The translations under genes and the position numbers were made by a program. DNA of 60,226 nucleotides from Paludibacter sp. (GTDB taxonomy: Bacteria > Bacteroidota > Bacteroidia > Bacteroidales > Paludibacteraceae): the NCBI GenBank assembly GCA_017882285.1, contig JADGPS010000008.1:1-60226 (forward strand), read 5' to 3'. This document shows, piece after piece, positions 28,778 to 53,152 of the stretch (its first letter is position 1; each line of letters begins with the position of its first letter). The notes under the pieces are model-generated. The model was not told where the DNA came from and did no database searches. It saw only the letters and a list, made by a program, of their open reading frames with translations.

Positions 28778-28850
28778 AATAATTTGAGTTTGAATGATGT
28801 TTTTTTATTTTTTATTTTTAACAGGGAAATATTTACCTAATTGTGCATGT

Positions 28851-28930
28851 TTTGGTAGACCAAAAGTAGTCTTTTTGTATCTAAAAAAATACATATTTAA
28901 CTATTATTTTTGGAACGTGTTGCAGAACAT
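28851..28930 (-). promoter_or_regulatory. Promoter/operator module A, shared with the SusC promoter
   Basis: On the plus-strand coordinates: dyad TTTGGT-AG-ACCAAA (28851-28864), minus-strand -7 box TACTTTTG (28861-28868), AT blocks at 28895-28900 and 28903-28912, and an upstream imperfect dyad GTGTTGCAGAACAT (28917-28930). The SusC promoter has the same parts in the same order with nearly identical spacing. The -7 box lies 84 bp before the start codon. Confidence 0.65.
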
Positions 28931-28947
28931 AATATTAAATTATTCTT

Positions 28948-29397
28948 TTATAAATTTTGCTCCATTACAGATAACGCTTTTGTTACTATTTCTATATCTG
29001 TAACGCCTCGAAAACCGCTAAATCCGACAGAAAATATTGTTCCATCATTTAATGTGATTGGTTGTCCGCCTATCCAACCAATATAATCGGGTTTTCTGAT
29101 GCCATATGTTGCTTCATCTATTTCATTATTAAATACGCACTTTTCAAATTCACCGGTTGGCATTCCGGTAATCCAAACCTGACTGGCTTTTGTCCATGCC
29201 ACTCTAAAACATTCTCGTGCTCTTATTTTATCGGTTCCAAAAACTTTTCCGCTTACAACACCGTCATTGTCAATGATACAAAGTGCAACATTTCCATTAG
29301 CTTTCGCCCGATCCTCTTCATTTTGCATGTAAACGGGAATCAGTTTTTCAATTTCAATAATTAGTTGATTAATAATTTCTTGATGTTCTTTTTTCAT
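28948..29397 (-). CDS. GlcG/HbpS-like heme-binding family protein
   Basis: 149 residues without a signal peptide. The profilin-like fold of the GlcG/HbpS (DUF336) family is suggested by VALCIIDNDGVVSGKVFG near the middle, a 'RARECFRVAWTKASQV' helix and a C-terminal GTIFSVGFSGFRG stretch. Family members bind heme or act as accessory proteins in catabolic operons; the binding residue here is unclear. It starts 6 bp after the preceding T9SS cargo gene, so it is the last gene of the long PUL transcript. Confidence 0.7.
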   Translation of the reverse strand: MKKEHQEIINQLIIEIEKLIPVYMQNEEDRAKANGNVALCIIDNDGVVSGKVFGTDKIRARECFRVAWTKASQVWITGMPTGEFEKCVFNNEIDEATYGIRKPDYIGWIGGQPITLNDGTIFSVGFSGFRGVTDIEIVTKALSVMEQNL

Positions 29398-29403
29398 AAT
29401 AGA

Positions 29404-30804
29404 TTAGTAAAGAATCATTTTTTTAGTTTCTACAATTGAACCGGTTAGTAATTGGTAAAAATACATTCCACTCATATGGTTTTTAGCATTCCAACTTACT
29501 GAATAAGTGCCGGGAAGTTTATTTTCACTCAACAAAGTTACTATTTTCATTCCGTTGGCGTTGAAAATAGTTATTGAAACAAACGCTTCATCAGTTATTC
29601 TAAATGAAATATTTGTCGACGAATGAAATGGATTCGGACTATTTTGCAAAAATGAGTTCGAACCATTTTGGATATTCTGAACCGAAGTTGTATTTGTAGT
29701 CCATCGTAAATCACCGATAGGACCACCATCAGTGCCGGCTTTTAGCAGGGGCGAATTCAATGGTAAAGTAAAATCGCCAATTGATGCATTTCTATAATGC
29801 GGATCGAGGGTCATTGAATCCTGAAACTGATAACCAATCCATAGTTTTCCTCCAACATAGGAATTAGGCGGAGCGCATTTCCAAAAACACGTATTTTTTA
29901 TAATGACAGCCGTTTGTACAAAAGGAGTCAGAAAATATAACGCCGGTTGATTATATTGTTGCTGATTTGTAACAATACAATTCGAAATTGTTAGCGTATT
30001 GAATGCATTATCTTCTTGAACATGACCATGAATATCGCCCAAATCGTTCATAGTGCAATGGTCAATAAAACCGGTTGGAGTAATGGTGGAGTCAGTCAAC
30101 GGAATATACGGTTTCTGCGGATGCAAAAGTACACACCGATAGCCGATTTTGCCAATTTTTAACGCCAATCCCTTGAGACTATAAACTGTAGAATTTGACA
30201 TTTCTAAATGATGTAACGATACATGTTTGTATTGCAGAAAATGATTTGCATGATAAGCTATCACATTCTTGACAAAAACTGTATCCTGTTGTGAACCTCT
30301 GGCTTCATCATCCTTCATACCATTAACAATGCAGTCTGTAAAATCATGAAATGTACAATTTTCAAAACGAAAATTACCAAATTTTGAATGGGACGGATCA
30401 GGACTGGCATCGAACATAATCATACTTGCTGCAACTGCAGTGTCTTTCAAAAAGCCGCTGACTTCAAGGTTTTTCAACGTTAAAGCAGCACCATTATTTA
30501 CCACAAAATAATAGTACTTTTTGGCGGTTGAAGAACCGGGTGCCAGCTTTATAATTGCCTTTTGAGTTGATCCTTCTTTAGCCTGAATAGTCAGCGGTTT
30601 ATTAATGCTGCCAAAGCTTGATGCACTTGATGAAAGTGTATATTCAGCACCACCGGTTAATTGTAGAATATCACCTGAATTACTCGACTTTATGGCGTTT
30701 TCAAGCGTGCCATTGCCGGGCAAAACATCAACAATCGTTTGAGCTGTTAAGATATTTGTTGAAAAGAGTAAGAAAAGAGAAGAATTGAGTAAAAATTTCA
30801 TCAT
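29404..30804 (-). CDS. Secreted beta-helix protein with T9SS type A sorting domain
   Basis: 466 residues if started at the ATG at 30804 (a second ATG follows directly at 30801; longer frames lack a good signal). The signal peptide ends near NILTAQ. The body is a right-handed parallel beta-helix: it opens with 'GNGTLENAIKSSNSGDILQL', as PL6/chondroitinase-B-like proteins do, and has repeated N-C/N-S turns. Near residue 360 there is a 'GGPIGDLRW' motif of DUF4957/DUF5123-type proteins. The end (ISGMYFYQL-like SGMYFYQLLTG … KKMILY) is a type A sorting domain. It may be a polysaccharide lyase or glycan-binding helix; catalytic Lys/Arg cannot be assigned by eye. Confidence 0.78.
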   Translation of the reverse strand: MMKFLLNSSLFLLFSTNILTAQTIVDVLPGNGTLENAIKSSNSGDILQLTGGAEYTLSSSASSFGSINKPLTIQAKEGSTQKAIIKLAPGSSTAKKYYYFVVNNGAALTLKNLEVSGFLKDTAVAASMIMFDASPDPSHSKFGNFRFENCTFHDFTDCIVNGMKDDEARGSQQDTVFVKNVIAYHANHFLQYKHVSLHHLEMSNSTVYSLKGLALKIGKIGYRCVLLHPQKPYIPLTDSTITPTGFIDHCTMNDLGDIHGHVQEDNAFNTLTISNCIVTNQQQYNQPALYFLTPFVQTAVIIKNTCFWKCAPPNSYVGGKLWIGYQFQDSMTLDPHYRNASIGDFTLPLNSPLLKAGTDGGPIGDLRWTTNTTSVQNIQNGSNSFLQNSPNPFHSSTNISFRITDEAFVSITIFNANGMKIVTLLSENKLPGTYSVSWNAKNHMSGMYFYQLLTGSIVETKKMILY

Positions 30805-30853
30805 AGTTATGTTGTATATTAGAATAAAATCGGGTAACAATTAAATCTGTGAA

Positions 30854-31858
30854 TTATAATTTTACCCAAGCGTCTTTTTCGGCACTTTCCACTATTGCGT
30901 CAACCACTTTCATATTTCCAATTGTGTCATTTAAAGAAAATTGAATTTCACTGTCATTCAATATAGCTTCAGAAAAATAATCGCCCTGCAAACTATACTG
31001 GTCAACCGGTTCAATGATAATTTCTTGAGAATTATTTTTTGTATGAACCCAAATATGAGTTGGTGCATTGATTGGTGTATTTACCGGAATTTCAATTTCG
31101 ATACGACCTTCAGTTCCAATAATATGTACACGCTGAAACGGCATTAACTGCGTAGAACAGGTAAAAGTTGAAGTGATTCCATTCGAAAAATCAAGAATTC
31201 CGGAAGTTATTCTATCCGTTTTCATTTTTGGATCAAAATCCATAATTCCTAAAGCACGAACCGGTTCTGCATCAAAAATAAACCGTGGAAAAGAAATGCA
31301 ATAGCACCCAATATCCATAAGCGAACCGCCATTTACATCTGTTTTATTGCGAATGTTAGTTGGATCGACGTTATAATAAGAAAAAAATGAATGAATGGTT
31401 TTAACTTCACCGATGGTATTTTCGGCAATAATAGATTTTACTTTTTGCCATTGCGGATGAAAATGATACATAAATGCTTCCATGATTTTCAAGTGAGGAA
31501 AATCATTCGCCACTTTTTGTAATTTTTCAGCTTCATCGGCTGAAATTCCAATGGGTTTTTCGCACAACACATGTTTTCCGGCTTGAAGCGACTTAATGGC
31601 CCATTCAACGTGCATATTATTGGGAAGCGGAATATAAATGGCTTCAATTTCCGAATCGCTTAATAATTCTTCGTAAGAACCGTAAGCTTTTTCTATATTT
31701 AAAAGTGATGCCGTACTTTTTGCTTGCTCAATATTCCTTGAAGCAATGGCAACAACCTGACAGTGATTACTTTTCTGTAACCCCGGAATCACTTTTTCAC
31801 GACCAATTTTGGCGGTACTGAGAATTCCCCAGCGTATTTTTTTTTCTATAATTTCCAT
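30854..31858 (-). CDS. Gfo/Idh/MocA family oxidoreductase, cytoplasmic
   Basis: 334 residues. An N-terminal Rossmann fold with 'WGILSTAKIGREKVIPGL' and the family motif CEKPIG (about 94-100) binds NAD(P). A C-terminal alpha/beta domain carries the substrate site, with 'GGSLMDIGCYCI' (conserved Asp/His-region of the family). No signal peptide. Members oxidise or reduce sugars, inositols and sugar acids; several act in 3-keto-glycoside routes. It lies 5 bp after the GT39-like gene, so the two are tightly coupled. Substrate unknown. Confidence 0.9.
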   Translation of the reverse strand: MEIIEKKIRWGILSTAKIGREKVIPGLQKSNHCQVVAIASRNIEQAKSTASLLNIEKAYGSYEELLSDSEIEAIYIPLPNNMHVEWAIKSLQAGKHVLCEKPIGISADEAEKLQKVANDFPHLKIMEAFMYHFHPQWQKVKSIIAENTIGEVKTIHSFFSYYNVDPTNIRNKTDVNGGSLMDIGCYCISFPRFIFDAEPVRALGIMDFDPKMKTDRITSGILDFSNGITSTFTCSTQLMPFQRVHIIGTEGRIEIEIPVNTPINAPTHIWVHTKNNSQEIIIEPVDQYSLQGDYFSEAILNDSEIQFSLNDTIGNMKVVDAIVESAEKDAWVKL

Positions 31859-31863
31859 CTAAT

Positions 31864-33411
31864 TTATTTCAAAGTTTGAACTTCATCAGCTGATCCTTTA
31901 TGAAAATAAAGACCTCCTTCGAGACAAGAAACCACTTGAGTTAATTTATAATTTTTCAACAAGGTATCCAGGCTAAGTAATTCACTATCTTCATTATCAA
32001 TAAACCAGGCAATATAATAATCATCTTTTTGATTCACTTTAAATTCTTCATTGTCTTTTACTGATTCTACATGAGGAACCAGATCGCCTCTCAAACCGGT
32101 AAACAAATAAACAGCTTCATTCCCATCGGAGTAAAACCGGGTACCTTCTTTAAAGGTGTGTTTATTTTCATTTAAATAATTCAGTATTGGCGACTTTCTC
32201 CAACACTCCTCAGCATAACCGGGTATTCCTGAATTTTTGGCCATTACATATAATTCATTGTTTTCTTTGTATTGAGAATAGCTAATTCCACCAAATGCTA
32301 AAATGAACACTGAAATTAAACTATATCTCTTCCAGCCGCTCAATCTGGAAATCAACCACGAAACATAAAAGGTAAATGGCAATAAACAAGCTAAATAAAG
32401 AGGTGATAATAATCTGAAATTCAATGTTTCAAACCTTGAAAAAGTTGCAGACAAAAGAATGAAAACGGTATAAGTGATAAAGTATGCAACACAGATATTC
32501 AGAAAGTTATAGTATTTGTCGGTTTTAAAAAGGGTACGAATGAAGGTGAAACCATAGAAAATGATGAAGGAAATTCCAATGAAAATTATAACCGTTTGCG
32601 GCAAACTGCTGTAACGGAAAAACTCACTGAAAACTGATGCATAATTTTGAATATTTTCGAATAACGAAGTGAGACTTTTCTCTCTATCTCCGGTAAAAAG
32701 CCCCATTATCAGATGATTTCTTAAAAGGTTTCCCACTAAAAAGGCAATGCCGATGATTCCAAAAATCAAGATATGCTTTATTTTTAAATCGATCTTCAGT
32801 TTTTTATCAAATAAAATCATCAATCCACCGGCACCAACCAATGTAACACCGGCATAGCGAACAACACACGATAATCCGGCTATCACGGCAACAAGTAGTA
32901 AAGCATTCATCGTTTTTTTCTGACCATATTGATGAAGAGCTATAAAGAATAGCAGAATCATAACCAGAAATAACGTTTCGGACATTAATACAGTGTACAC
33001 GTTCAGAAGTGTCGGACTGAATACAATCAGAAGCAGAAAAGCAATCTTAATCCATTTGTTTTTAGGTGCAATCTGATTAATAATACAGCCGCTCAAATAT
33101 ATCAAAATAAAATAAAGGATCATGTTGATGATATGAGCACTTTGTAAAATATCAACTCGTGAGATAAACTGTATAATGCCCAAAAAAGCAGGATAACCTA
33201 TCGGGAAATCAATGACCGGAATTCCTTCAAACTCAAAAAATCCACCACCCAACGCTGCGCTTCGTGCTGTGCTGAGATAAACAATCGAATCGGGTTCCAA
33301 TCCGATTCCACCGTGCCGCGTGAATAAGAAAATCAATAATGCGCCCAAGATCCCGACAATAGCGGAATCATAATTATGTTTCAGGGCGAAGATATTAAAA
33401 TTTGAGTTCAT
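31864..33411 (-). CDS. GT39/ArnT-like polytopic membrane protein
   Basis: 515 residues. About ten to twelve hydrophobic segments span the first ~390 residues, followed by a soluble tail of ~120. The first loop contains 'EPDSIVYLSTARSAALGG', including the acidic residue after the first helix that is typical of GT-C/ArnT/PMT glycosyltransferases. Such enzymes move sugars from polyprenyl-phosphate donors on the outer face of the inner membrane. It is unusual to find one in the middle of a degradative operon, 5 bp from an oxidoreductase gene. Its acceptor is not predictable. Confidence 0.72.
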   Translation of the reverse strand: MNSNFNIFALKHNYDSAIVGILGALLIFLFTRHGGIGLEPDSIVYLSTARSAALGGGFFEFEGIPVIDFPIGYPAFLGIIQFISRVDILQSAHIINMILYFILIYLSGCIINQIAPKNKWIKIAFLLLIVFSPTLLNVYTVLMSETLFLVMILLFFIALHQYGQKKTMNALLLVAVIAGLSCVVRYAGVTLVGAGGLMILFDKKLKIDLKIKHILIFGIIGIAFLVGNLLRNHLIMGLFTGDREKSLTSLFENIQNYASVFSEFFRYSSLPQTVIIFIGISFIIFYGFTFIRTLFKTDKYYNFLNICVAYFITYTVFILLSATFSRFETLNFRLLSPLYLACLLPFTFYVSWLISRLSGWKRYSLISVFILAFGGISYSQYKENNELYVMAKNSGIPGYAEECWRKSPILNYLNENKHTFKEGTRFYSDGNEAVYLFTGLRGDLVPHVESVKDNEEFKVNQKDDYYIAWFIDNEDSELLSLDTLLKNYKLTQVVSCLEGGLYFHKGSADEVQTLK

Positions 33412-33453
33412 AACGTCTTATTGTGAATTCTATGAATCGATTTTTTTAAATAT

Positions 33454-34872
33454 TTATTTTCCTTTCAACGCCAGTTTCAAGGCACTCGTTGTGGTATAAT
33501 ATTTTGCAATCATATTCGGCACTTCCCATTCCGGCAGTTTTCCATCTTTCAAATAACCAAGGAATTTCTCAGTAACCTGACCAAAATGCGCTTCATGACC
33601 TACTTTATATTTATCAGGGATATTCACCTTCCAGGTTGAAGCATTCACATTTTCAAAAGTAAGTCCGGTGGTTTTTTTGTTCATCACAATTGCTTTTTCC
33701 AGAGCATCTTTTAAAAGTGCAAGATCAGCGCCATTGTTTGCTTTGATATAAAGTATCGGACTGTAATTTTCTTCTTTTCCCTGACGGATTTCAAGCGTAC
33801 AATTGGTGCCACGCATAATTGAGAAATACGTGTCGCCGGTTTCTTCGGGCGCTTTGTATTTCCATTCGGCGGTAAGTTTTACGTGAACTCCTTTCAGCTT
33901 ATAAAGCATTTCACCGTTGGCAAATTCATCAAGTTTTCCATCTTTGATAACTTTTTTAAGATATTCCGGAAACTCGTTCATTTTAGTAACTTCTGAAAAC
34001 TCATTTAACGTTATAACCGTTGGCCAGCGTTTTGCAGAAAGCATTTCAATATCTGATTTTTTGATGATTTGTTCCGGAAAACATCCCCATTGAACTAAAT
34101 CGACAAGGTGAGTTGCCACATCCACAAGCGCTTCGCCTTGCTGATTGACATCAAAAGCCCACGCCGGACGAACCAGCGTATTTCCTGAAACGGATTTATA
34201 GAAAAAATGAACACTTATATTCTCAACTGCCGGTTTTTCGGGAGTTCCTTTTTGAAGTTTTCCGAAAATGGCCGGATTTTGCGATAATTCTTTCTGTAAA
34301 ACCGATGTGATTTCGTTCCGCTCGGTCATAATGTCGTACAACAAAACATTTTTTTCTTTGGCAATTTTAAACGCTTCCTCCAATTCTGCAAACTTTTCGG
34401 GAGTAATCACCATCGGTTTGTCAGCCAATACATTTAATCCGGCTTCGACCGATTTTTTGATATAATCTGTTTTGATTCTGTTATTTCCGGCAATCACAAC
34501 CACATTTCCAGGTTTTTCTGAAAGCATTTTTTCAAAATAATCCGTTCCGGTATACACTTTTTCATTCCAAAAAGTTGGTTTGTCGGTTCTGGTATTGTAA
34601 CCTTCAATCCTTTTTAAATGCAAGTCCAGATCGGCACTTGCCGGTGCAAAAACAAAAACTTCAGGACTAATCTGAGTGTACATGTTTTTTTGAACCAATG
34701 CAGCATGAAAATGTCCCGGATCAAGCGTCATTATTTTCACTTCGCCAGTTGCAACGGAAAATTTACTGGTGGCATTTTCTTCGGTCGTTTTATTTGTTTT
34801 TGCGCTTATTCCCATAAAAGAAGTTGCTGCCAATGAGGCAATTATCAATGTTACAGAAAAAATATTTTTCAT
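33454..34872 (-). CDS. Exported Gfo/Idh/MocA oxidoreductase with Oxidoreduct_C domain
   Basis: 472 residues with a Sec-type signal peptide (about 1-24, SLAATSFMGISAK); no twin-arginine motif. The nucleotide-binding part contains 'VVIAGNNRIKTDYIKKSVEAG' (here shortened as VVIAGNNRIKTDY) and ADKPMVI in place of the usual EKP motif. The C-terminal part matches the 'putative oxidoreductase C-terminal domain' type common in Bacteroidota PULs. An exported NAD-fold enzyme must keep its cofactor tightly bound and hand electrons on, as in glucose-fructose oxidoreductase. It may oxidise sugar units in the periplasm. Neighbours are the MFS transporter gene and the GT39-like gene. Confidence 0.85.
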   Translation of the reverse strand: MKNIFSVTLIIASLAATSFMGISAKTNKTTEENATSKFSVATGEVKIMTLDPGHFHAALVQKNMYTQISPEVFVFAPASADLDLHLKRIEGYNTRTDKPTFWNEKVYTGTDYFEKMLSEKPGNVVVIAGNNRIKTDYIKKSVEAGLNVLADKPMVITPEKFAELEEAFKIAKEKNVLLYDIMTERNEITSVLQKELSQNPAIFGKLQKGTPEKPAVENISVHFFYKSVSGNTLVRPAWAFDVNQQGEALVDVATHLVDLVQWGCFPEQIIKKSDIEMLSAKRWPTVITLNEFSEVTKMNEFPEYLKKVIKDGKLDEFANGEMLYKLKGVHVKLTAEWKYKAPEETGDTYFSIMRGTNCTLEIRQGKEENYSPILYIKANNGADLALLKDALEKAIVMNKKTTGLTFENVNASTWKVNIPDKYKVGHEAHFGQVTEKFLGYLKDGKLPEWEVPNMIAKYYTTTSALKLALKGK

Positions 34873-34915
34873 TTTTTTGAATCTAAAATTTCATTTTTAC
34901 AGAAACCGTATTGTT

Positions 34916-36202
34916 TTAAATATTAATCGGTTTCATCTTTTTGGTTAGAAGATGAATAATTAATATCGCCAAAAGATATGTACTGCCGGCTATGATAAAT
35001 AATACATTGTAACCAGCGGTTATGTGCCCTAAATTTTTGTAATATGCCAAAAGAGTACCAACCAGCAAAGGAAAAAGTGTTGATGCTATTGATCCGGACA
35101 TACCACCAATACCAACAACTGAACTGACAGCCTTTTTGGGAACTATATCCGAAACAATCGTAAATATATTGGAACTCCATGACTGATGAGCAGCTGTAGC
35201 AATGCTTATAATGGCAACTGCGACCCAAATATCTGTTGCAAATCTTGCTAAAAAAATAGGAGTGACTGCGATGGCTGAAATAAGCAATGTTATTTTTCGT
35301 GCCTTTAATACAGGCCAACCCATTTTAATAAGTTTTGAAGAAAGATACCCCCCACCTATGCTTCCAAATGTAGTTGCAACATAAACGACAACCAACTGCC
35401 AACTTGGTTTTGTGAGATCAAGTTTAAACGCATCAGCAAAATAAGAAGGTAACCAGAATAAGAAGAACCACCAGATTGGATCAGTTAACACTTTTCCAAC
35501 GATAAATACCCAAGTTTGGCGAAAACCAATTAATTGATGCCATTTTATCTTAACCCCTGTTTCCACTGCAGTTTCATCAACGTCGCTGTTAATATATTCA
35601 AGTTCAGGTTGTTTTAGTCGTTTTTGCTTTGATGGAATTTCATAAAAAATCAACCAAAATACCAACCAGATAAAGCCTAACGAACCGGTTATCAAAAATG
35701 CTTCCCGCCAACCATAAACGCCTAAAATCCAAGGAACTAAAATTGGAGCAACTACTGCACCAATGCTGGTTCCGGAATTAAAAATACCGGTTGCTAAAGC
35801 ACGTTCTTTCTTCGGAAACCATTCTGCAACTGCTTTTACTCCTGCAGGAAAGTTACCTGATTCCGATAAACCCAATAACCCTCTGACAAAACCAAAACCA
35901 AGTGTGCTCTTTACAACAGCATGCAACATGGCTGAAACACTCCAAACAAAAACTGAAATAGTATAACCAATCTTTGATCCGACTTTATCAATTAAACTTC
36001 CAAAAACAAGGTATCCTAAAGCATACATGGCCGCAAAAGCCATAACAATATAGCTATAATCTACTTCTGTCCAGTTAAATTCAAGTGCCAAAGTGGGTTT
36101 TAATAAACCGATAACTTGTCTGTCGACATAATTAATTGTTGTTGCAAAAAAGAGTAATCCACAAACTACCCAACGATAATTTCCATTTTTAGATTTTTCC
36201 AT
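34916..36202 (-). CDS. MFS transporter, hexuronate (ExuT/ACS) family
   Basis: 428 residues from the ATG at 36202 (MEKSKNGNYRWVVCGLLF); the longer frame adds a non-hydrophobic, unlikely N-terminus. Twelve membrane helices. The first helix region 'TTINYVDRQVIGLLKP' and 'GLSESGNFPAGVKAVAEWFP' are hallmarks of the anion:cation symporter (ACS) family with ExuT. Substrates of relatives are hexuronates and other organic anions, imported with protons. In this locus it would take up the monomers or oxidised products released in the periplasm. It lies between two Gfo/Idh/MocA genes with short gaps. Family firm; uronate specificity inferred. Confidence 0.92.
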   Translation of the reverse strand: MEKSKNGNYRWVVCGLLFFATTINYVDRQVIGLLKPTLALEFNWTEVDYSYIVMAFAAMYALGYLVFGSLIDKVGSKIGYTISVFVWSVSAMLHAVVKSTLGFGFVRGLLGLSESGNFPAGVKAVAEWFPKKERALATGIFNSGTSIGAVVAPILVPWILGVYGWREAFLITGSLGFIWLVFWLIFYEIPSKQKRLKQPELEYINSDVDETAVETGVKIKWHQLIGFRQTWVFIVGKVLTDPIWWFFLFWLPSYFADAFKLDLTKPSWQLVVVYVATTFGSIGGGYLSSKLIKMGWPVLKARKITLLISAIAVTPIFLARFATDIWVAVAIISIATAAHQSWSSNIFTIVSDIVPKKAVSSVVGIGGMSGSIASTLFPLLVGTLLAYYKNLGHITAGYNVLFIIAGSTYLLAILIIHLLTKKMKPINI

Positions 36203-36236
36203 TTTTAGATTTTTCCAGTTTATTGATATTGTGATT

Positions 36237-37421
36237 TTATTTGCAGATATTGATATTGACTTCTGCACCGTTACGCTCTGCCGAAACATAACCGGCATAA
36301 ATCGTGGCAATTACATCTGCAGCCAGAGCGCTATTACTTTCAATCGGTTCTCCGTAAGCCGACGAACGGTAAAAAGCATCCATTTCATGTTGATAACCGT
36401 TGAACCAGCCTTCGTCGGGCGAAATATGCGACCAACCTTGTTTTGTTCCTGTTTTTTCGACCACATAAATGTCTTTGAAATTTTCGTCAACCGGATTATA
36501 GGTTTCCATGGCATTATTTGGCGTAATGTTGCAAATCGTTCGATGGTTGTTGGCATGAACTTCCACATAATTTTTAACGCCACCATGTAGCAACTCACTG
36601 GCAACAATATCGGCAATTGTTCCGTCTTCAAAAACGATATGCGTGAAAGCATAATCCTCAACATCAGTATATGAATCTTTTAAATGTCCCTCATTTATAA
36701 AGTTATCCATTCTGGTAATGGCATGCGTTCTGGCTGAGATTGTTTTGGGATGAATCGGTTTTCCAAAACGCACTTTGCCTTCGACATGTTTAAAATAAAT
36801 AGCGGTGGTCAACGGATGACAACCTTTGCCCATTAAAGAACCGCCGCCTGACATTCTCCATTTTCCATAATCGAGCGAATGTGAACCGGAATGTGATTGT
36901 TGTGCCTGAATCCAAAGAATTTGAGCTTTTGTTTTTTCAATCACTTCTCTTTCTTTCTGAACAGCAGGTGCATAAACCCAATTTTCAGCGTACATAATAG
37001 AACCTTTGCTGTTTTTTTCGGCTTCCAACAAGCGGTTGATGCTTGCAATTGCTTGTTCAAGACCTTTTTCTCTTGGGAAAGTATCGCCATTAAATTCGGG
37101 AGTTCTATCACCAAAATAACCGGTAAACGGCTTTTCGATAATAACATCCTTGTCTTGTTTCAACACTTCGATGGCTATTGGTTCGTGAGTTACCGGCGGT
37201 GTGCAAACGTGCAAAATATCAGATGCTGCAATCAGTTCTTCCATGCTGTCGAAAGCCAGAAGTCCGCGTGTTTCGCAAAGTTCTTTTAATTCTTCGGGAC
37301 TTTTGGAATAAACTCCTGCAATTTCAACTTTTGTACTGAATACGCGTTGCAAAGCATCCAAATGAAATTTTGCCGCAAATCCGGAACCAATTATTCCGGC
37401 TCTAATAACTTTTTTTTCCAT
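36237..37421 (-). CDS. Gfo/Idh/MocA family oxidoreductase, cytoplasmic
   Basis: 394 residues. The N-terminal Rossmann fold has GIIGSGFAAKFHLDALQ and the EKPFTG motif (about 95-100). The catalytic half includes 'GGGSLMGKGCHPLTTAIYF', where the family's active-site histidine sits. No signal peptide. It may act on the sugar or sugar acid brought in by the MFS transporter encoded next to it (34 bp gap). It belongs to a different subgroup than the other two oxidoreductases, judging by length and motifs. Substrate unknown. Confidence 0.92.
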   Translation of the reverse strand: MEKKVIRAGIIGSGFAAKFHLDALQRVFSTKVEIAGVYSKSPEELKELCETRGLLAFDSMEELIAASDILHVCTPPVTHEPIAIEVLKQDKDVIIEKPFTGYFGDRTPEFNGDTFPREKGLEQAIASINRLLEAEKNSKGSIMYAENWVYAPAVQKEREVIEKTKAQILWIQAQQSHSGSHSLDYGKWRMSGGGSLMGKGCHPLTTAIYFKHVEGKVRFGKPIHPKTISARTHAITRMDNFINEGHLKDSYTDVEDYAFTHIVFEDGTIADIVASELLHGGVKNYVEVHANNHRTICNITPNNAMETYNPVDENFKDIYVVEKTGTKQGWSHISPDEGWFNGYQHEMDAFYRSSAYGEPIESNSALAADVIATIYAGYVSAERNGAEVNINICK

Positions 37422-37500
37422 GATTTATTATTGTGTCAAGCCTAAAAGAAATTTTCATTCTTTCATTCTTTTAAAATATTAAAAATTCAAATTTTCAATT

Positions 37501-39213: not shown

Positions 39214-39259
39214 TGTTTAAACTGTTTTTTTTTATTGAAAACCAGAAATTTTGGTTTAA

Positions 39260-40408: not shown

Positions 40409-40426
40409 ATATCTTTTGTTTGTAAT

Positions 40427-41395: not shown

Positions 41396-41430
41396 AAATA
41401 TTAATTTTTTTCGTTTGTGTTTTTTGTTGT

Positions 41431-42408: not shown

Positions 42409-42558
42409 AAAATGACAATAAAAACTTTGTTTCTTCTTATTTAAAATGGACAAATTTGCATTTCAATAATAAACCTTTGATAGTTATATAATTGACTCAT
42501 TATAATCCTATCAAAGATTTATTCTTTTTATTCAACAAATTTATTCACAAACTTTTAA

Positions 42559-45021: not shown

Positions 45022-45055
45022 TTTGTTTTATATTAATGTATTTGTTAATTATTAC

Positions 45056-47311
45056 TTATTTAACTTCACCATAAATTGCCAACCCTCGAGACGTACTGGA
45101 ACCATTAATACCCCACTTAGCTGCGGCGTTTGTATTTACCGGAACAATACGGAATGTCACTGTCGTACCTTCAACAACATTCTTCAATGCCGGGAATTTT
45201 CCAAGATTGATTGTTGTTGGTAATGTGGAGAAGGAAGCTATAGTACTATAGCTAATTTCCACAAAATTAGTTCCATCAAATGAGTATTGGATACTTACCT
45301 GAGAGTCGCCACCATTTGTACGACAAGCAATATCCATACCACTCAGTTGGAGTATTTTACCTGCAGGAACTTTTAAGGTTGTTGTCAAATAACGTGATGG
45401 ATTTGAAAGTCTGCTTGCATCAGTATTCTGATCACAACCCGTAGTTGCAAAATCCTTAGCGTATTTGGTAGTTGAAGATGAACCGTTGAAGTTTGTTGCC
45501 ACAAGGTTGGATACAGTAATTGCATTATTAGAGTTTGTTGTCCAGGCCATTGTAGTTGCATAATTACAAGTCGAAACATTCCAAACTACTTCAAAGTTGC
45601 CAACTATCGGCACTTCTGGTTTAATTACAGTAGTTGTAACGGTTCTAATTGAGATAAAGGGATCAAAACCAATAATAGTGAAAGTAATATCACCTTCTAC
45701 TGTTGGAGTCCCAGTAACTTTTAATACTAATGATCCTATTCCATTACCAACAGTTGGGTTAATAATACCAGAAACACTAAGACCAACAGAGGCAGCGCCA
45801 CTCATTGTTGCTGAAATTTCGGCTTCGACAGTGCTACTATCACCGTTTTTATAAGGAATAGAAATAGAGCTGGTTGAAGCCTCATTAAGAGTTAATACGC
45901 CATTGAATACAGGAGTAAGAAATCGAAGTCCAAGCATCGATATGAAGCGGGTATTTGTCAAACCTGCAACGTCAGATGCTGAACTTGGACTTAACAAATA
46001 ACCGATTTGACCAGAAGCAACAATACCATTCAAGGTTCCGCTACCAGTAAGCACTGGGTCACTCGCAAAAGATGCTCCGTTAGGAAGCTGCATCAAGTAT
46101 GATTCTTCACTTCCATTCACCTCCATTGTGAAAAGTGTATTGCCCCACGATGGATAAGTACTCTTATTGAGATAGGATTTTGTAATCTGTGTATTCTCGA
46201 TGGCAACATACATAGCCAGATAGTTACTAAGTTCCGTATGAACAACTTTAACAGGAGTAAGAATTGCTCCGGTAGAAGTAATCGTTATATTTTTCAGATT
46301 TCTAATTGCAAATAAAGGGTTACCTTTAATGTTTGATAAGAGAGCTCCTTTGGAACGAATAGTCAATACTTCACCTGTCTTATATACACCTCTGGTTGTT
46401 GAATCTGATACGATTGTAGCTGTAATACCATAATTCGCAACACTTTTACCGGCTGCTATATCAGCCGAGCAATCATTATCAACCAGAGAAAGAGTGATAA
46501 CGTCGGTTGCCTCAACCACATTTGAAATCGAAACAACAATATATTCACTTTCTGTAAGTTCTTTTGAACCTCCAACTGACAATGCCTTAGCCCGTGCAAC
46601 TAAATCCTTAATTGCCAGATGCACAGGGGGAACATCAGTTGTGAATGATTTCTCCAATCCGAAGAAATAGTCTCCTGTCGAAGTCTTCACATACGATTTG
46701 TAAAGATACTTTGTTGCACTTAACAAATTGCTTATTTTACCTGAAAAAATCCCTTGCGTAATCGAATCTCTAACGAGTTTATAATTAGTGTAAATACCTG
46801 TTGATTCAGGAGCAACTGCAAAACCAATTTCAGTCACCTCAATTTTGCCGGAGTAATACCATGCACCTGATAAAGTAACATTAGCCTCATCTATAAAAGT
46901 AGAATCCGCAGTTTTAACAACGGGTTTACCTGATTGCATGATAGGAATTTCCTTACCCGTAGCCGAACTATTTAAAATAAGAAGTGCTTGACGATAGTCG
47001 CCATCCAAACTTTTTACTGTAATAGTGATAGTTTGGTTTCCGGCATCGCCGCTTTTGGATGAGATAGAACACCATTCAGTACTATCCGGGAGCAGATTGT
47101 TTGAAAGTGTGGCAGTCCACGCACGGTTTACATTGAATTCTATAGTCTGTTGACCGCCTTCAAGGCCGAACACCGCGAAATCTTTATTCGTTTTCAGTGT
47201 CGCTTTCACAGGCAATTCATATACACTATCACATGACCAAAGTCCAAAGATACTTACTAACATTGAAAGCATCATAAACTTTGTCAAAGTTTTCATTACT
47301 AGTTGTTTCAT
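45056..47311 (-). CDS. BACON/DUF5689 surface lipoprotein of the PUL
   Basis: 751 residues. The signal ends in a lipobox FGLWSC with Cys27 (Cys22 if the internal ATG at 47296 is used), so it is a lipoprotein. A BACON domain (about 35-130, ending 'IPIMQSGKP') is followed by a type-III-fibronectin-like module (about 135-225). A DUF5689 domain (about 230-420) with 'IVVSISNVVEATDVITL' comes next, then Ig-like and jelly-roll-like segments to the end. Proteins in this place, after SusD, are surface glycan-binding lipoproteins of SusE/F type. The gap from SusD (229 bp) contains a hairpin. Family architecture clear; ligand inferred. Confidence 0.85.
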   Translation of the reverse strand: MKQLVMKTLTKFMMLSMLVSIFGLWSCDSVYELPVKATLKTNKDFAVFGLEGGQQTIEFNVNRAWTATLSNNLLPDSTEWCSISSKSGDAGNQTITITVKSLDGDYRQALLILNSSATGKEIPIMQSGKPVVKTADSTFIDEANVTLSGAWYYSGKIEVTEIGFAVAPESTGIYTNYKLVRDSITQGIFSGKISNLLSATKYLYKSYVKTSTGDYFFGLEKSFTTDVPPVHLAIKDLVARAKALSVGGSKELTESEYIVVSISNVVEATDVITLSLVDNDCSADIAAGKSVANYGITATIVSDSTTRGVYKTGEVLTIRSKGALLSNIKGNPLFAIRNLKNITITSTGAILTPVKVVHTELSNYLAMYVAIENTQITKSYLNKSTYPSWGNTLFTMEVNGSEESYLMQLPNGASFASDPVLTGSGTLNGIVASGQIGYLLSPSSASDVAGLTNTRFISMLGLRFLTPVFNGVLTLNEASTSSISIPYKNGDSSTVEAEISATMSGAASVGLSVSGIINPTVGNGIGSLVLKVTGTPTVEGDITFTIIGFDPFISIRTVTTTVIKPEVPIVGNFEVVWNVSTCNYATTMAWTTNSNNAITVSNLVATNFNGSSSTTKYAKDFATTGCDQNTDASRLSNPSRYLTTTLKVPAGKILQLSGMDIACRTNGGDSQVSIQYSFDGTNFVEISYSTIASFSTLPTTINLGKFPALKNVVEGTTVTFRIVPVNTNAAAKWGINGSSTSRGLAIYGEVK

Positions 47312-47447
47312 ACTATTTAGATTTTTTATTATTCTTATCCAATATTATTTTCTGTAAAGGGTGTATTTCCTCAAAGTTGAATCAAATTACGCTAATTATG
47401 CCAAGTATCAAGATTGACTGAAAGAATTATTTGTGATTCTAAAGTCG

Positions 47448-47482
47448 TAAAGCCACTCTATTGTAAGGTGTAAACGGCTTTA
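47448..47482. other. Inverted repeat between susD and the lipoprotein gene
   Basis: TAAAGCC (47448-47454) and GGCTTTA (47476-47482), with an inner CAC/GTG pair. No T run follows on the minus strand. Such intercistronic hairpins often mark RNA processing or partial attenuation after susCD. Confidence 0.4.
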
Positions 47483-47540
47483 AAAGTAAATTAAGTATGG
47501 CATTTTTAAAAACAATTCAACTTTTATTGACCGGATTAAT

Positions 47541-49316
47541 TTAAAATCCAGGATTTTGTTCCATTGGAATTGTGACATTGGCATCAATTACACTTTGTGG
47601 AATAGGAAACAATGTATCTCGAAGTGCTATATTTTTGTCCCTGCCATTGCGTGAAGAAATCCATTCAATGAAATCACTACCGGGCATTGTGCGAAGCAAT
47701 GTATAGCGACGTTGTTCTTCACCCATTAATTCACGGGCACGTTCTTCGAGAATAAGGGAAAGCGAGATGTCTGAATCGGTTATCGTACGGGCATGTGAAC
47801 GCAGACGCAACTCATTTATATCACTTGTGGCCTGAGGTATATTACCAAGTTTCATTGCCGCTTCGGCTCGCAATAAATAGGTTTCGGCCAAACGAGCATA
47901 TACTTGATCTTGATGAGAAGCGTTATTTTTTGGATAACCCGTATCACAAAAGCTGTATTTCAATGTGTAAGGCCAGTTGTAAGTATCACCCTCCGAAGCA
48001 CCAGACTTTAGATTTTGAAAACCGGTTATCGTACCTTGAGTTCGATCATCACATTGAGCAATAGTCGGGCAACCAATCCAAACAGTGTCACCAACACTCC
48101 ATGGTGTCCCAGTAAGACTTTTTGTCCCGGAAAACGTATCGAACTTGCCCAATATGTAATACTTGGCAACAGCGTACTGCGAACCCCTGTCATCAATAAT
48201 TCCATTTGCATAGTCACTCGATGAATTGTATAAGTATAAAGCCCATTTTGTAAGAGCAGCACGTGCAAAACCACGTCCTCCGCGAGTTTCATCATAGAAA
48301 GAGATAGTTACGGTAGGTCCTATCTTATTCGCTCCATCAAACTTTGGACGGAGGGAGAAACGCATTAAGTTGGCTCCGCCGCCAATCACGTTTTTTTCCC
48401 ATTGCATTACCCACAGAGCTTCTTTATTCCCGGATTCAATGTTTACGGTGTTAGGATTAAACATGTCCATGAATGCACTACCTGAACCACTCCCTAATCT
48501 ATTCTTGACCAAAGCATAAGGACCTTCATTAATACATTTGTCTGCAAATAAGTAAGCCGAATCTAATTTTGTTCTATCATAACTTCCTACAACTTTACCC
48601 GCCTCAGTCAAATACATTTCCGCAAGATAATTCAGTACAACTCCCTTAGATGCACGACCAATTTGAGAAGGTTTCCAATCCATTCTTGGTTCTGCATACA
48701 AAAGGTCATCTATAATCTGTCGACGAATCTTGTTAACATCGTCACGAACATAGTCTGTTCGAAAATTATCTCCGGTAACCTCATCAACCACTAAAGGTAC
48801 TTTGCCCCACACATATGTTAAATGACGATAAGACCAGGCACGAATAAAGCGAGCTTCTGCTACAATACGCTCTTTAGTTGCTTCGTCGGTCCATTTGATT
48901 GCAGGATTCTCCGAACGTTTTATAAGAAGATTTGCCCCCAGTACTGTCTGATATAACCACTCAAATACACTTTTCAAGCTTTTATCTGTCGGGACATTGG
49001 CTTTTGACCAATCCGAATAGATAACAGAGAACTCGCCTGTGGCTGATGCACTGGCGTTAATTACATCGGTTCCGCCCATATTCATTAATGCACGTAAACC
49101 CGTTTCACCAAACGAATCCGTATTGCCGTATCCTTCACGTTCCTGACGAACCAAAGCATAGAGCCCATTGAGTCCTGATTCAAATCCAGGCTGAGAATTA
49201 TACAATTGATCTGCCGTTAGAAAGGTGTCGGGATGTTCATTAAGTAATTCTGAACTACATCCTGAAAATGTCATAAAGCCTGCTATGACAACCAAAATTA
49301 TTAATATCTTTTTCAT
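47541..49316 (-). CDS. SusD/RagB-family glycan-binding lipoprotein
   Basis: 591 residues. The lipobox FSGC gives acylated Cys20. The SusD/RagB fold shows the early 'LNEHPDTFLTADQLYNS' segment, TPR-like helices ('AEARFIRAWSYRHLTYVWG', 'YLAEMYLTEAGKVVG') and the late 'ETYLLRAEAAMKLGN' and 'LILEERARELMGEEQRR' motifs. It caps the SusC channel and delivers oligosaccharides. It follows SusC by 41 bp and ends before a 229-bp gap. Substrate cannot be read from sequence, but the downstream enzymes suggest a uronate-containing or 3-keto-processed glycan. Confidence 0.96.
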   Translation of the reverse strand: MKKILIILVVIAGFMTFSGCSSELLNEHPDTFLTADQLYNSQPGFESGLNGLYALVRQEREGYGNTDSFGETGLRALMNMGGTDVINASASATGEFSVIYSDWSKANVPTDKSLKSVFEWLYQTVLGANLLIKRSENPAIKWTDEATKERIVAEARFIRAWSYRHLTYVWGKVPLVVDEVTGDNFRTDYVRDDVNKIRRQIIDDLLYAEPRMDWKPSQIGRASKGVVLNYLAEMYLTEAGKVVGSYDRTKLDSAYLFADKCINEGPYALVKNRLGSGSGSAFMDMFNPNTVNIESGNKEALWVMQWEKNVIGGGANLMRFSLRPKFDGANKIGPTVTISFYDETRGGRGFARAALTKWALYLYNSSSDYANGIIDDRGSQYAVAKYYILGKFDTFSGTKSLTGTPWSVGDTVWIGCPTIAQCDDRTQGTITGFQNLKSGASEGDTYNWPYTLKYSFCDTGYPKNNASHQDQVYARLAETYLLRAEAAMKLGNIPQATSDINELRLRSHARTITDSDISLSLILEERARELMGEEQRRYTLLRTMPGSDFIEWISSRNGRDKNIALRDTLFPIPQSVIDANVTIPMEQNPGF

Positions 49317-49357
49317 AAATTTTATCTGCTTATTTCTTATAAAGTTACACTTTTTGT

Positions 49358-52300
49358 CTATAATGTGAAGTTAATACCAAAAATAAACTCCCGCTGAAGT
49401 GGTATTGCACGCTGGTCACCAAGTTCCGGATCCATACCTGTGTACTGTGTGAACGTTACAAGATTCTTACCGGTGACATATACTTTTGCCTCTGTTACAC
49501 CTAATTTCGAGAGTAACTTTTTGGGCATTTTATAAGAAAGTGAAACATCTTTAATACGCCAAAAGTCCGCTTTCTCGTAGTATGCGGGTGAAATCGTCTT
49601 GGCAGCAATATATGTATTGGAATTAGCGTCAGTTGACCACATAATATTAGATGGATTGTTTACAGTCCAAAAATTTTGTGATACATAGTAGTTTTTTGCC
49701 TTGAAAGGGTCTACTTTAACTGATCCATTAGTGCCATAGAGGTAAATATTGAGTTGGAATGATCCTAAGTCGAATGTGTTATTCAAACTCCATGTGAAGT
49801 TCGGTTCCGTTGAACCAATAATTTGGCGGTCACCTGCATCATAAACGCCATTGTTATTTAAATCGTCGTATTTCGCATAACCGGGTAGTGCCCCGTATTG
49901 TGCTGCAAGATTCGCTTCATTGTTTTGCCACACGCCGGTAGTGTAATAGTCATAAGCTACTTTTACAGGTTTTCCAATGAACCATCCGTTAGTAAGATCA
50001 TCTTTGCCATCGCCATAAAGATCAATAATTTGTGTGCGAAGGAGTGTCAAGTTCAATGCACTCTTCCAACCAAAAATTTTAGTACGGATATTATCTGACA
50101 CGATTGAGAACTCGATACCTTGATTGCGTGTCTTACCTATATTCTGAAAGATAGATGATACACCATTTACTGCAGATATACTACGGCTAAGCAAAAGGTC
50201 ACGCGTATCGTTCTGATAAACGTTGATCTCACCCGATATTCTGGAATCAAGAAAAGCATAATCTAACCCGATATTCGCTGAGCGGGTAGTTTCCCACGAT
50301 AGACTTGGAGTACCCAAAGTAGTTGGGATATAACCTGCCGCAAGACTGCTTCCATTGAGATAGCCCATATCCCCTAATTTTGAAATCGTTTGAAAAGCTG
50401 AAATTGCCTGATTACCAGCTTCTCCATAAGACAATCGTAATTTAAAATTATTCATTACGCTTTTAATGGAACTGAAAAACGATTCGTTTGCAATATTCCA
50501 GCCCAACGCCAATGATGGAAATACACCATACTTGTTATTTGCACCAAATCCTGAATACCCATCCCTTCGAGCGGTTGCTGTTAATAAATAGCGGCTGTCA
50601 TAAGAGTAATTGATACGAAACATCTGTGAAATGAGAGCTGTTTGCCAATTTTTAAACGTATTTGTAACCAATCCGGCTGAGGGCATTCCCCAATAGGAAA
50701 GTAAGTCATTCGGAAAGTTTTGACCTTCTTGCAATCTTTCACGCTGTGTTTCGGACTCAAATGAATATAATCCGGTCAGAAATAAATGATGTTTACCAAA
50801 CTCGCGCTGGTAATTTACAATATTCTCTATTGCATAAGAGTATTTCATTGTATTATCAATCGATGCCCAACCATTAACGCTTTTTTTGGCACCTGTATTA
50901 AGTCCTTGATACTGATTATCGTCCGTATTGCTATACTGAACATCTGTATTAAGAGTATAGGTCAGACCTTTAGCAAGAGTTGCTACAAATGATATATTTG
51001 ATGTCAAACTATAACCCACATTATAATCATCGTATAGCAAACTCTCAATTGGATTGAAACGTTTCTCATTATCCGCATCCGGCATAATATTAATTGAACC
51101 GTCCGGATTGAAAGGGCGCATAAGTGGTGACTTGTTGAACACGTCGACAAAACTTGGTTTAGCTCCACTTTTATCCTTCCAGGTCAGCATATTGCTTGAA
51201 GTCATATTTAACCAGTCTGTAATTTTTGCCTGAAGGTTCACACGATTAGTAACACGTGTATATTTGTCATTGATTACAATACCCTTTGTCGACAAGTAGC
51301 TTGTCGCTACATTATATTTAAAATCCTTGGTACCACCTGAAACGGTAAGGTTATGACGTGTACTTTCACCCATTTGGGTAATCAGACCTTTCCAAGTCCA
51401 GGTTTTCCAACTGCCATCAGCATACACAGCTCGCTCAGAATTTGAAAGCCCCATTAATGCATCGTCAGGATTTGAAAAATCAGTCCAATTGTTTTTAAAA
51501 GCAAGATATTCAGCGCCATCCATAATATGAGGGAAGTTGGCAACGTTTTGAATTGAGTAAAAACCATCATACTTCACAACAGTTTTACCTTCTTTGCCTT
51601 TTTTGGTAGTGATCAGGATTACTCCATTCGATCCACGAGAACCATAGATAGCTACTGATGAAGCATCCTTCAAAACCTCAATCGAAGCCACGTCATCCGG
51701 AGAAATATCTGATATCGCACCATGGTATGGCATACCGTCGAGTACCAAAAGTGGTGTAGTACTTGCTGAAATTGAGTTTCGACCCCGAATCAACATTACA
51801 GCACTCTGACCGTCGGGATCTGCACCTGCTGCTGTGGCCATGACAGTCAAACCAGGGACGGAACCTTGTATCATCTGAGCAATATCGGTTACAGCCATAT
51901 TGTCGATACGATCTTTGGCAACCGAACCCACAGCCCCGGTAATATCACTTTTCTTCTGGGTACCATAACCTACAACGACTACTTCATCCAAATTATTCAA
52001 CGACTGATTAAGTGAAATTTCAAATGAAGTTTTATTAGATATTGAAACCAATTGAGTCTCATATCCAACAAAAGAAATTCGTAACTGACCTTCTTCAGGT
52101 GATTCAAGCGAAAAGTGTCCATTGATATCGGTTAAAGTTCCAATACTGGTACCTTTTAACAACACGCTGGCACCTATAACCGGTTGATTACTCTCATCGG
52201 TTACCGTGCCGTTAATTTTTACTTTTTTAATTGAAGATTTAGATTTTCCTAAACCCTCTTTTGTCTTTGTTGTAATGTAAATTTGTTTCCCTTCTATTTT

Positions 52301-52603
52301 ATAAGCATTGGAACTGTTTTTGAAGAGTTCATCGAGAACTTGAGTGATAAGTTGATCTTTTAAGTCCAGGGTTACAATACGATTAAGTTCTACATCTTTG
52401 TCATTGTAAAAGAAAACCATCTCACTCTTTTTCTCAATTATTTTTAAAATCTCTTGAACGGTTTTGTTTTTTACTTGTACAGTCAATTTTGTTGTTTGCG
52501 CGTAACTTACACTCAATAGCGACGATGCAAACAACAACACTATCAGACCTGTTAATCGTTGAATTTTACTTTTCAGTAATTTGCGTTTTGTTGTGTTTTT
52601 CAT
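49358..52603 (-). CDS. SusC/RagA-family TonB-dependent transporter with STN domain
   Basis: 1081 residues. After the signal (about 1-36, ending SVSYAQ) comes a secretin/TonB N-terminal (STN) domain (about 38-115), then a carboxypeptidase-regulatory-like domain (about 128-215; 'VIGASVLLKGTSIGTLTD'). A plug with the SusC signature (DEVVVVGYGTQKKSDITGA, about 205-223; 'SRGSNGVILITTKKG') and a long beta-barrel follow, ending in a strand FIFGINFTL. It imports oligosaccharides with energy from TonB. STN domains usually contact anti-sigma factors, but none is encoded here; a hybrid two-component sensor is. Two candidate promoters lie upstream. Confidence 0.96.
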   Translation of the reverse strand: MKNTTKRKLLKSKIQRLTGLIVLLFASSLLSVSYAQTTKLTVQVKNKTVQEILKIIEKKSEMVFFYNDKDVELNRIVTLDLKDQLITQVLDELFKNSSNAYKIEGKQIYITTKTKEGLGKSKSSIKKVKINGTVTDESNQPVIGASVLLKGTSIGTLTDINGHFSLESPEEGQLRISFVGYETQLVSISNKTSFEISLNQSLNNLDEVVVVGYGTQKKSDITGAVGSVAKDRIDNMAVTDIAQMIQGSVPGLTVMATAAGADPDGQSAVMLIRGRNSISASTTPLLVLDGMPYHGAISDISPDDVASIEVLKDASSVAIYGSRGSNGVILITTKKGKEGKTVVKYDGFYSIQNVANFPHIMDGAEYLAFKNNWTDFSNPDDALMGLSNSERAVYADGSWKTWTWKGLITQMGESTRHNLTVSGGTKDFKYNVATSYLSTKGIVINDKYTRVTNRVNLQAKITDWLNMTSSNMLTWKDKSGAKPSFVDVFNKSPLMRPFNPDGSINIMPDADNEKRFNPIESLLYDDYNVGYSLTSNISFVATLAKGLTYTLNTDVQYSNTDDNQYQGLNTGAKKSVNGWASIDNTMKYSYAIENIVNYQREFGKHHLFLTGLYSFESETQRERLQEGQNFPNDLLSYWGMPSAGLVTNTFKNWQTALISQMFRINYSYDSRYLLTATARRDGYSGFGANNKYGVFPSLALGWNIANESFFSSIKSVMNNFKLRLSYGEAGNQAISAFQTISKLGDMGYLNGSSLAAGYIPTTLGTPSLSWETTRSANIGLDYAFLDSRISGEINVYQNDTRDLLLSRSISAVNGVSSIFQNIGKTRNQGIEFSIVSDNIRTKIFGWKSALNLTLLRTQIIDLYGDGKDDLTNGWFIGKPVKVAYDYYTTGVWQNNEANLAAQYGALPGYAKYDDLNNNGVYDAGDRQIIGSTEPNFTWSLNNTFDLGSFQLNIYLYGTNGSVKVDPFKAKNYYVSQNFWTVNNPSNIMWSTDANSNTYIAAKTISPAYYEKADFWRIKDVSLSYKMPKKLLSKLGVTEAKVYVTGKNLVTFTQYTGMDPELGDQRAIPLQREFIFGINFTL

Positions 52604-52801
52604 ATAGTTGAAACAATTTAAAATAGTATTGTTAGTAACAGTTTGTACTTTCTTGCTTTTTTACAATTAGATTTGGAAGATAACCAGGTATCTGGTATTT
52701 CCTATTCAAAAATTTGTTTTAAAGTGGGTTCTAAAAATTCATTTATAATAAAATTTCTAAAAAACATCAAGAACCCATTAACTGTTTTAAGAAACGATTT
52801 C

Positions 52802-52882
52802 TTTGGTTGACCAAAAGTAGTGTGTTCGCACACAATAAAAAAATTATTTAAGCATTATTTTTGAAAATATGTTGTACAACAT
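52802..52882 (-). promoter_or_regulatory. Promoter/operator module B of susC
   Basis: Dyad TTTGGT-TG-ACCAAA (52802-52815), minus-strand -7 box TACTTTTG (52812-52819), AT blocks at 52846-52851 and 52854-52863, and the perfect 14-bp palindrome ATGTTGTACAACAT (52869-52882). Parts and spacing match module A (28851-28930). A start near 52805 would give a leader of about 200 nt. Confidence 0.7.
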
Positions 52883-52914
52883 AAATAAATATAGAAATTA
52901 CCGACAGTCTTTTT

Positions 52915-52961: not shown

Positions 52962-52973
52962 CTTATAGTGCTG

Positions 52974-53123: not shown

Positions 53124-53152
53124 GAAAAGAAAATTATTTTATTGAATCATAG

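Follow-up and report, generated by a model that had tools for sequence, protein, structure and literature searches.

A SusCD locus of Paludibacter sp. with DUF1080 proteins and exported barrels of altered metal site

A 3-keto-glycoside route encoded by BT2156–BT2159 of Bacteroides thetaiotaomicron was reportedly described by Nasseri et al. in Nature in 2024. The route is also treated in other articles (PMC11300592, PMC12385236, PMC9007349), in one of which BT2157 is described as a 3-ketotrehalose hydrolase (PMC9007349), and it is tempered by the report that deletions of BT2157 and BT2158 caused no growth defect on raffinose-family sugars (PMC11501099). A 3-keto route in the periplasm is, as such, not new: it is known from B. 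thetaiotaomicron or proposed, as for LacABC with DUF1080 in Caulobacter. Here, we analyse a 15-gene locus in a stretch of 60,226 nucleotides from Paludibacter sp. (GenBank assembly GCA_017882285.1, contig JADGPS010000008.1; hereafter the window), which encodes SusC, SusD, two DUF1080 proteins and four exported barrels of the AP_endonuc_2 family. Its most interesting element is this exported barrel subfamily, whose conserved active site is short of metal ligands.

With the BT2156–BT2159 route the locus shares DUF1080, Gfo/Idh/MocA proteins and exported enzymes, but its oxidoreductases lie outside the BT_2158 and BT_2159 families, its barrels are multiplied and lack a full metal site, and SusCD are part of the run. 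DUF1080, a transporter, sugar-epimerase-like barrels and reductase-like proteins are shared with the Caulobacter lac cluster (PMC9007349); in contrast, LacC was not found in the window genome, where SusCD and a hybrid two-component system regulator (HTCS) are present. The Mn-dependent C- and O-glycoside eliminases AgCGD2, PuCGD/DgpB-C and AtOGE (PMC8563793, PMC10628242) have the barrel and its His, Asp, Lys and Glu in common with the window proteins, whereas the latter differ by two replaced metal ligands and by signal-peptide-like starts, and none of the proteins of the run was recognised as a CGD beta subunit. The best solved match of the barrels is 4OVX, a xylose isomerase domain protein of Planctomyces limnophilus (3e-24; TM score 0.85 by target length), which, like the window barrels, has no ligand His when aligned but, unlike them, keeps the first Glu ligand. 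A preliminary description of this DNA had named DUF1080, Gfo/Idh/MocA proteins and barrels of the xylose-isomerase type as components of known 3-keto-glycoside pathways, and this is supported. The open-access literature yielded nothing on DUF1080 with barrels and alginate lyase, nor on PF01261 with PF06439.

The barrels, with the residues at six active-site positions given as a signature, are:

41431–42453 (likely start near 42408), minus strand: TIM3, exported AP_endonuc_2 barrel, signature QHDLKE
40427–41395, minus strand: TIM2, exported AP_endonuc_2 barrel, signature QHDQKE (Q197 H199 D226 Q250 K252 E285)
39260–40408, minus strand: TIM1, exported AP_endonuc_2 barrel, signature QHDQKE
37501–39213, minus strand: exported DUF1080::AP_endonuc_2 fusion, signature QHDQKE (Pfam 142.5 and 83.6 bits)

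The three free barrels score 100.6–105.8 bits for AP_endonuc_2 in Pfam. Aligned to the puerarin deglycosidase chain 7bvr, with residue roles taken from PMC8563793 and PMC10628242, the barrels keep His149, Asp179, Lys271 and Glu305 of AgCGD2, whereas Glu147 is replaced by Gln and His269 by Gln, Phe or Leu; the separate aligned stretches of this mapping are weak (i-Evalues 0.014–0.054), with a whole-sequence E-value of 1.7e-13. Both replacements are found in 52 of the 52 subfamily members complete at these columns, the third ligand position being Gln in 36, Phe in 13 and Leu in three. The subfamily alignment comprised 53 sequences, of which L058_8355, cut by a contig end, was aligned but not counted; L059 and L060, on the same contig as L014, and L041, shortened by a stop, were left out. 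Five canonical or outgroup barrels among the 58 aligned are not members and carry EEDHKE (two), HHDHKE (two; the AtOGE arrangement) or EHDQKE (one). Compared with the Mn-dependent eliminases, the barrels retain the catalytic His (His149 of AgCGD2), but not the ligand set Glu/His, Asp, His, Glu. That they are mis-annotated canonical Mn enzymes is ruled out by the 7bvr mapping and the ligand changes in all complete members. Going by these residues, we do not class the window barrels with the eliminases of the Mn type, although their mode of action may yet be similar.

The barrel models mostly have pLDDT values of 84–98, and their Foldseek matches 4ovx and 7drd point to a xylose-isomerase-like barrel fold; in the model of the DUF1080::barrel fusion, the barrel alone is confident and the DUF1080 half is mixed. 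TIM1 has Gly-Lys-Ser repeats near its C terminus. The signal-peptide-like starts of the barrels were judged by eye and with a hydrophobicity scan in a subset of subfamily members. In a tree of 58 barrels, whose long outgroup branches were flagged by a warning, the four window copies are placed inside a 13-row clade (support 98/98) and represent four lineages, every one of which has an orthologue in another locus (support 100/92 to 100/99); hence the multiplication of the barrels seems to be older than the split of these loci. For TIM1, TIM3 and the fusion, rates between the two copies in a Flavobacteriaceae-labelled metagenome-assembled genome (MAG; three gene pairs) are 0.04–0.10 for nonsynonymous (dN) and 0.52–0.64 for synonymous (dS) substitutions; dS is saturated in comparisons that include window genes. 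The preliminary description had named the loss of active-site residues as a sign against its pathway. Two metal ligands of the barrels are indeed lost, but the altered sites are strictly conserved and dN is well below dS in these pairs, which argues for a function that was changed rather than lost. Annotation is difficult for loci in which no glycoside hydrolase is recognised, and the six-residue barrel signature provides a direct handle and a potential marker for such loci in Bacteroidota.

The remaining genes of the run, and the features adjoining it, are:

49358–52603, minus strand: SusC-like TonB-dependent transporter, 1081 aa (Pfam STN/CarbopepD_reg_2/Plug)
47541–49316, minus strand: SusD-like protein with lipoprotein-like start (SusD_RagB, 97 bits)
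45056–47311, minus strand: possible surface glycan-binding protein (DUF5689; BACON sub-threshold)
42559–45021, minus strand: exported DUF1080::PF05426 (alginate-lyase-like) fusion (Pfam 117.8 and 51.3 bits)
36237–37421, minus strand: GFOb, Gfo/Idh/MocA oxidoreductase, predicted cytosolic, with GxGxxA and EKP
34916–36208 (longest open reading frame reaches 36310), minus strand: MFS permease
33454–34872, minus strand: exported PF16490 oxidoreductase-like protein without GxGxxG (modest Rossmann match, 31.8 bits)
31864–33411, minus strand: membrane protein, weakly like LA_3751/LA_3752 glycosyltransferases (45 bits, cut-off 200)
30854–31858, minus strand: GFOa, Gfo/Idh/MocA oxidoreductase, predicted cytosolic
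29404–30840, minus strand: secreted DUF4957-DUF5123 protein with a type IX secretion system tail
28948–29397, minus strand: HbpS/GlcG-like protein (23.1 bits, below the Pfam cut-off of 25)
54630–58991, plus strand: HTCS, adjoining the run but outside 28948..52603
53091–53123, minus strand: terminator-like hairpin of 15 pairs, between the DUF4957 gene 53153–54424 and susC

The host genome comprises 3.18 Mb in 143 contigs, is 98.3% complete and includes the window as contig C63. All 15 genes lie on the minus strand within 28948..52603, from susC (52603) to the HbpS-like gene (28948), and are spaced by 5–229 bases when likely starts are used, as the preliminary description had it when it spoke of a run with short gaps. 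Its account of the domains also holds: Pfam found SusC, SusD, two DUF1080, PF05426, four AP_endonuc_2, three Gfo/Idh/MocA-type and an MFS domain, signal-peptide-like starts agree with the export of the four barrels, and none of the 15 proteins reached the Pfam cut-off for a glycoside hydrolase (GH), with a sub-threshold GH97 match inside one barrel (28.3 bits, cut-off 32.5). The 'ExuT-like' importer proves to have been a guess, the best NCBIfam match of the MFS permease being TIGR00893 (galactonate transporters) at 241.9 bits, under the cut-off of 395. With susC and susD adjacent and exported proteins and a regulator alongside, the run has the make-up of a polysaccharide utilization locus, of which the HTCS is the probable regulator. 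The two strongest terminator-like hairpins (53123–53091 and 52964–52932) both lie between the DUF4957 gene and susC; terminator-like sites number 14 in 41000–55000 (shuffle mean 9.6) and 10 in 28700–42600 (shuffle mean 10.9). The 664-aa protein encoded at 26783–28777 matched no Pfam family, and its N-terminus, judged by eye, resembles a signal peptide.

Relatives of the run were found in L014/L059/L060, L013 with L058, and L069. The first belong to one Bacteroidales-labelled MAG and have the order HTCS, SusC (72% identity), SusD (77%), surface protein (64%), DUF1080::PF05426 (66% in the PF05426 part), barrel (67%), redoxin, DUF1080::barrel (70%), a 214-aa protein, GFOb (80%), a 607-aa protein, an Nramp-like protein, a canonical-type AP_endonuc_2 barrel and a DUF4957-like protein (52%; L060); the HTCS (L059), 30% identical to that of the window, also adjoins susC. 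L058 and L013 are two contigs of the Flavobacteriaceae-labelled MAG, in which the DUF1080::PF05426–barrel part is present in two copies and the SusC of L058 is 56% identical to that of the window. L069, from another family of the same class, has SusC (50%), SusD (47%), DUF1080::PF05426 (74% in the PF05426 part) and two barrels, followed by GFOb (66%), MFS permease (51%), exported PF16490 protein (54%), HbpS-like protein (63%), a 149-aa protein, GFOa (58%) and an Ldh_2-like protein. Since many of the same genes stay linked at these loci, a chance gene string is ruled out; the run is a real, conserved, inherited unit, which supports the preliminary description on this point.

The compartments of the locus proteins were deduced from their N-termini. 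In GFOb, the Rossmann fold begins at the N-terminus and leaves no space for a signal peptide in seven of seven family proteins, and GFOa also begins directly in the Rossmann fold without a signal-peptide-like start; both look cytosolic. The GFOb profile matches 53 solved chains, with the glycoside oxidoreductase DgpA in fifth place (8e-10). For D3dgpA, a 3-keto-glucoside is reported to serve as hydride acceptor (PMC11239390). The protein at 33454 has LDPGHFHAAL instead of GxGxxG at the glycine-rich loop, as do its relatives in L068 (56% identity) and L069 (54%), and all three have Sec- or lipoprotein-like N termini and no twin-arginine (Tat) signal; by comparison, three proteins of the BT_2158 family carry Tat signals of the SR(R/K) type and a GVGVGG or GIGVGG loop. 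The run oxidoreductases reached at best 38.5 and 32.3 bits against the BT_2158 and BT_2159 families (cut-offs 750 and 650), the latter model being applied to the run only, and the best score for a BT_2158-family glycoside 3-dehydrogenase in the whole genome was 49.6 bits. LacC (PF13618) had no match in the genome, with a positive Caulobacter control; LacA and LacB were not searched for. PF01408 was found at 12 places in the genome, three of them in the window. Among the other nine, one (contig C8) is Tat-like with intact glycines, three (one on C143, two on C53) are Sec-like with altered loops and five look cytosolic; the unlinked Tat-like Gfo/Idh/MocA protein on C8 is a possible candidate oxidant. 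C53 (L104, L106) encodes an exported Gfo/Idh/MocA-like protein and, beside it, another exported protein that resembles PF16490 by its motif alone (LAPGHFHADL). A second cluster of the same genome, on C48 (L064:8083-15368), encodes in one direction DUF1080, a barrel-like protein, a 410-aa protein, two Gfo/Idh/MocA proteins and a 343-aa protein, and resembles known 3-keto-sugar clusters more.

The two DUF1080 domains (PF06439) score 142.5 and 117.8 bits against a cut-off of 26.8, and the PF05426 domain fused to one of them passes its cut-off of 22.2 modestly. Alginate lyases have a catalytic pattern of Asn-His and Tyr. The PF05426 lyase of L033 and its PDB relatives 3nfv and 8bdq, our reference for this pattern, all have N-N-H and Tyr, whereas in a remote alignment the window domain and its five homologues (six of six) have N-G-N and His; the same difference, with PF05426 shared, separates the domain from 8bdq, 3nfv and 1hv6, which we take to be PL38/PL5-type alginate lyases. 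This gives an indication only that the lyase half of the fusion lacks the catalytic pattern of true lyases. The AlphaFold model of the fusion has a mean pLDDT of 34. Lys/Gly-rich linkers are present in this protein (42559–45021), and the linker is much longer in L013.

Gene neighbourhoods were compared within 6 kb of the barrel at 45 barrel loci, including the window. GFOb occurs near the barrel at seven loci, MFS at five, GFOa-like proteins at five, HbpS-like proteins at four and DUF1080::PF05426 at five, two of these from one genome; L039, a sixth row of the last cluster, matches by DUF1080 alone and is uncounted. In one family, GFOb was found in four of 17 genomes that have the barrel and in two of the 63 examined among the 197 that lack it (p = 0.017, one-sided Fisher test); in three of the four genomes having both it lies within ~5 kb of the barrel. 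L068 combines a barrel of the HHDH type, the ligand pattern reported for AtOGE, with GFOb, MFS and the exported PF16490 protein in a single run. Scans of 40 chosen neighbour proteins did not bear out a uniform uronate context, as lyases or a sulfatase are found at some barrel loci and GH5, GH1, apiosidase-like or housekeeping genes at others. The HbpS/GlcG-like protein (window 28948–29397) recurs at the window, L069, L079 and L081.

We tentatively read the run as an HTCS-type SusCD locus, in which exported DUF1080 proteins and altered barrels would cleave a glycan, probably by keto or elimination chemistry, ahead of MFS uptake and cytosolic dehydrogenases; we infer the substrate, the regulation, the chemistry of the barrels and DUF1080 proteins, and the order of steps. 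SusCD would import an oligo- or polysaccharide, which in the periplasm would be cleaved by the two DUF1080 proteins and the four altered barrels, most likely through carbonyl-assisted elimination or hydration. The proton would go to the conserved His, and the carbonyl would be held by Lys/Gln/Gln in place of a complete metal site. The freed (keto-)sugars would pass the MFS permease and be reduced or oxidised by cytosolic GFOb and GFOa. The related loci, the residues kept and replaced in the barrel subfamily, the DgpA match of GFOb and its association with the barrel, the four barrel lineages, the low dN and the run of L068 speak for this reading. Several points weigh against it. Two metal ligands on which characterised eliminases depend are missing from the barrels, and AtOGE without its His ligand (H189A) retains less than 0.1% activity (PMC10628242). 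Among the exported proteins of the locus, none was recognised as a dehydrogenase from the known 3-oxidising families, and DUF1080, which is also present in an endo-xanthanase (PMC10881899), need not imply keto-sugar chemistry. Most of the 45 barrel loci lack both GFOb and DUF1080::PF05426 within 6 kb, so that the barrel appears independent of both, and the GFOb–barrel association is modest, with a statistic that ignores kinship. The bolder proposal that the barrels are keto-glycoside lyases or hydratases of a new class that works without metal, with the Mn2+ site replaced by Gln/Lys contacts, multiplied and DUF1080-fused as the cleaving enzymes of a SusCD locus without a recognised glycoside hydrolase, seems rather improbable to us.

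Alternatively, though this is somewhat unlikely, the barrels could act on polysaccharide-lyase products (unsaturated or deoxy-uronates) instead of 3-keto-glycosides, as parts of a uronide locus. The main ground for this is the varied barrel neighbours: in L033 the barrel gene overlaps the PF05426 lyase gene (279 bits), in L038 it shares a run with genes for Ldh_2 and a PL28 ulvan lyase, Ldh_2-like genes adjoin it in L086 (with a sulfatase) and L088, and GH28 is near in L074; the closeness of the permease to galactonate transporters also favours it. However, the lyase pattern is missing from the window PF05426 domain, enzymes of other kinds occur at further barrel loci (GH5 in L079, GH1 in L093, an apiosidase-like enzyme in L085), and several barrels adjoin unrelated genes. 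The loss of two metal ligands would also fit non-catalytic barrels that serve as binding or scaffold proteins in a conventional locus, as would fusion to DUF1080, whose fold has been likened to that of GH16 (PMC10881899); the presence of the catalytic His, Asp, Lys and Glu in 52 of 52 complete members, the four separate lineages kept and the low dN of the tested pairs make this improbable. Least probable is the full proposal of the preliminary description, that lyase action, 3-oxidation and keto-sugar cleavage occur jointly in the periplasm with the locus's own dehydrogenases. It is supported in part: its family content, co-inheritance and exported, multiplied barrels stand, and a periplasmic glycoside 3-dehydrogenase is known from B. 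thetaiotaomicron (PMC11300592). Oxidation in the periplasm by the locus's own enzymes is not supported, given the Rossmann-fold starts of GFOa and GFOb and a PF16490 protein without GxGxxG and Tat signal; the barrels are short of two metal ligands, the supposed uronate-polymer lyase does not show the Asn-His/Tyr pattern in the remote alignment, and neither LacC nor a BT_2158-family protein over the cut-off was found in the genome.

The DUF1080::PF05426 fusion was found in two of 395 phylum genomes, including its own, the other copy (G302/L031) being apparently broken; its homologues are in L013, L014, L058, L069 and G302/L031. At E ≤ 1e-20, the barrel is present in four of 60 relatives, own genome included, and among the 35 other genomes of the genus in G018 only, a rarity from which acquisition by transfer is likely. 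The subfamily occurs in eight of 395 phylum genomes (E ≤ 1e-30) and seven of 395 class genomes (E ≤ 1e-55; genomes partly shared with the phylum set), own included in both, and in 17 of 214 and 11 of 219 genomes of two families (limit 1e-55). As the weakest match listed in both family searches was 7.7e-106, the subfamily is sharply bounded. A barrel search of genome_contigs gave seven loci, and a plasmid search with TIM2 gave 23 records, distant barrels only, all below 60% identity. HHDHKE (AtOGE-like) barrels share loci with altered barrels at L068:14925-15776 (with a Tat-like start) and L070:5681-6520. An Nramp-like transporter recurs by the barrels, at L014:18136-19599 next to the canonical barrel and at L070:6529-7878 next to the HHDH-type barrel, and homologues of the latter protein are present in L072 and L075.

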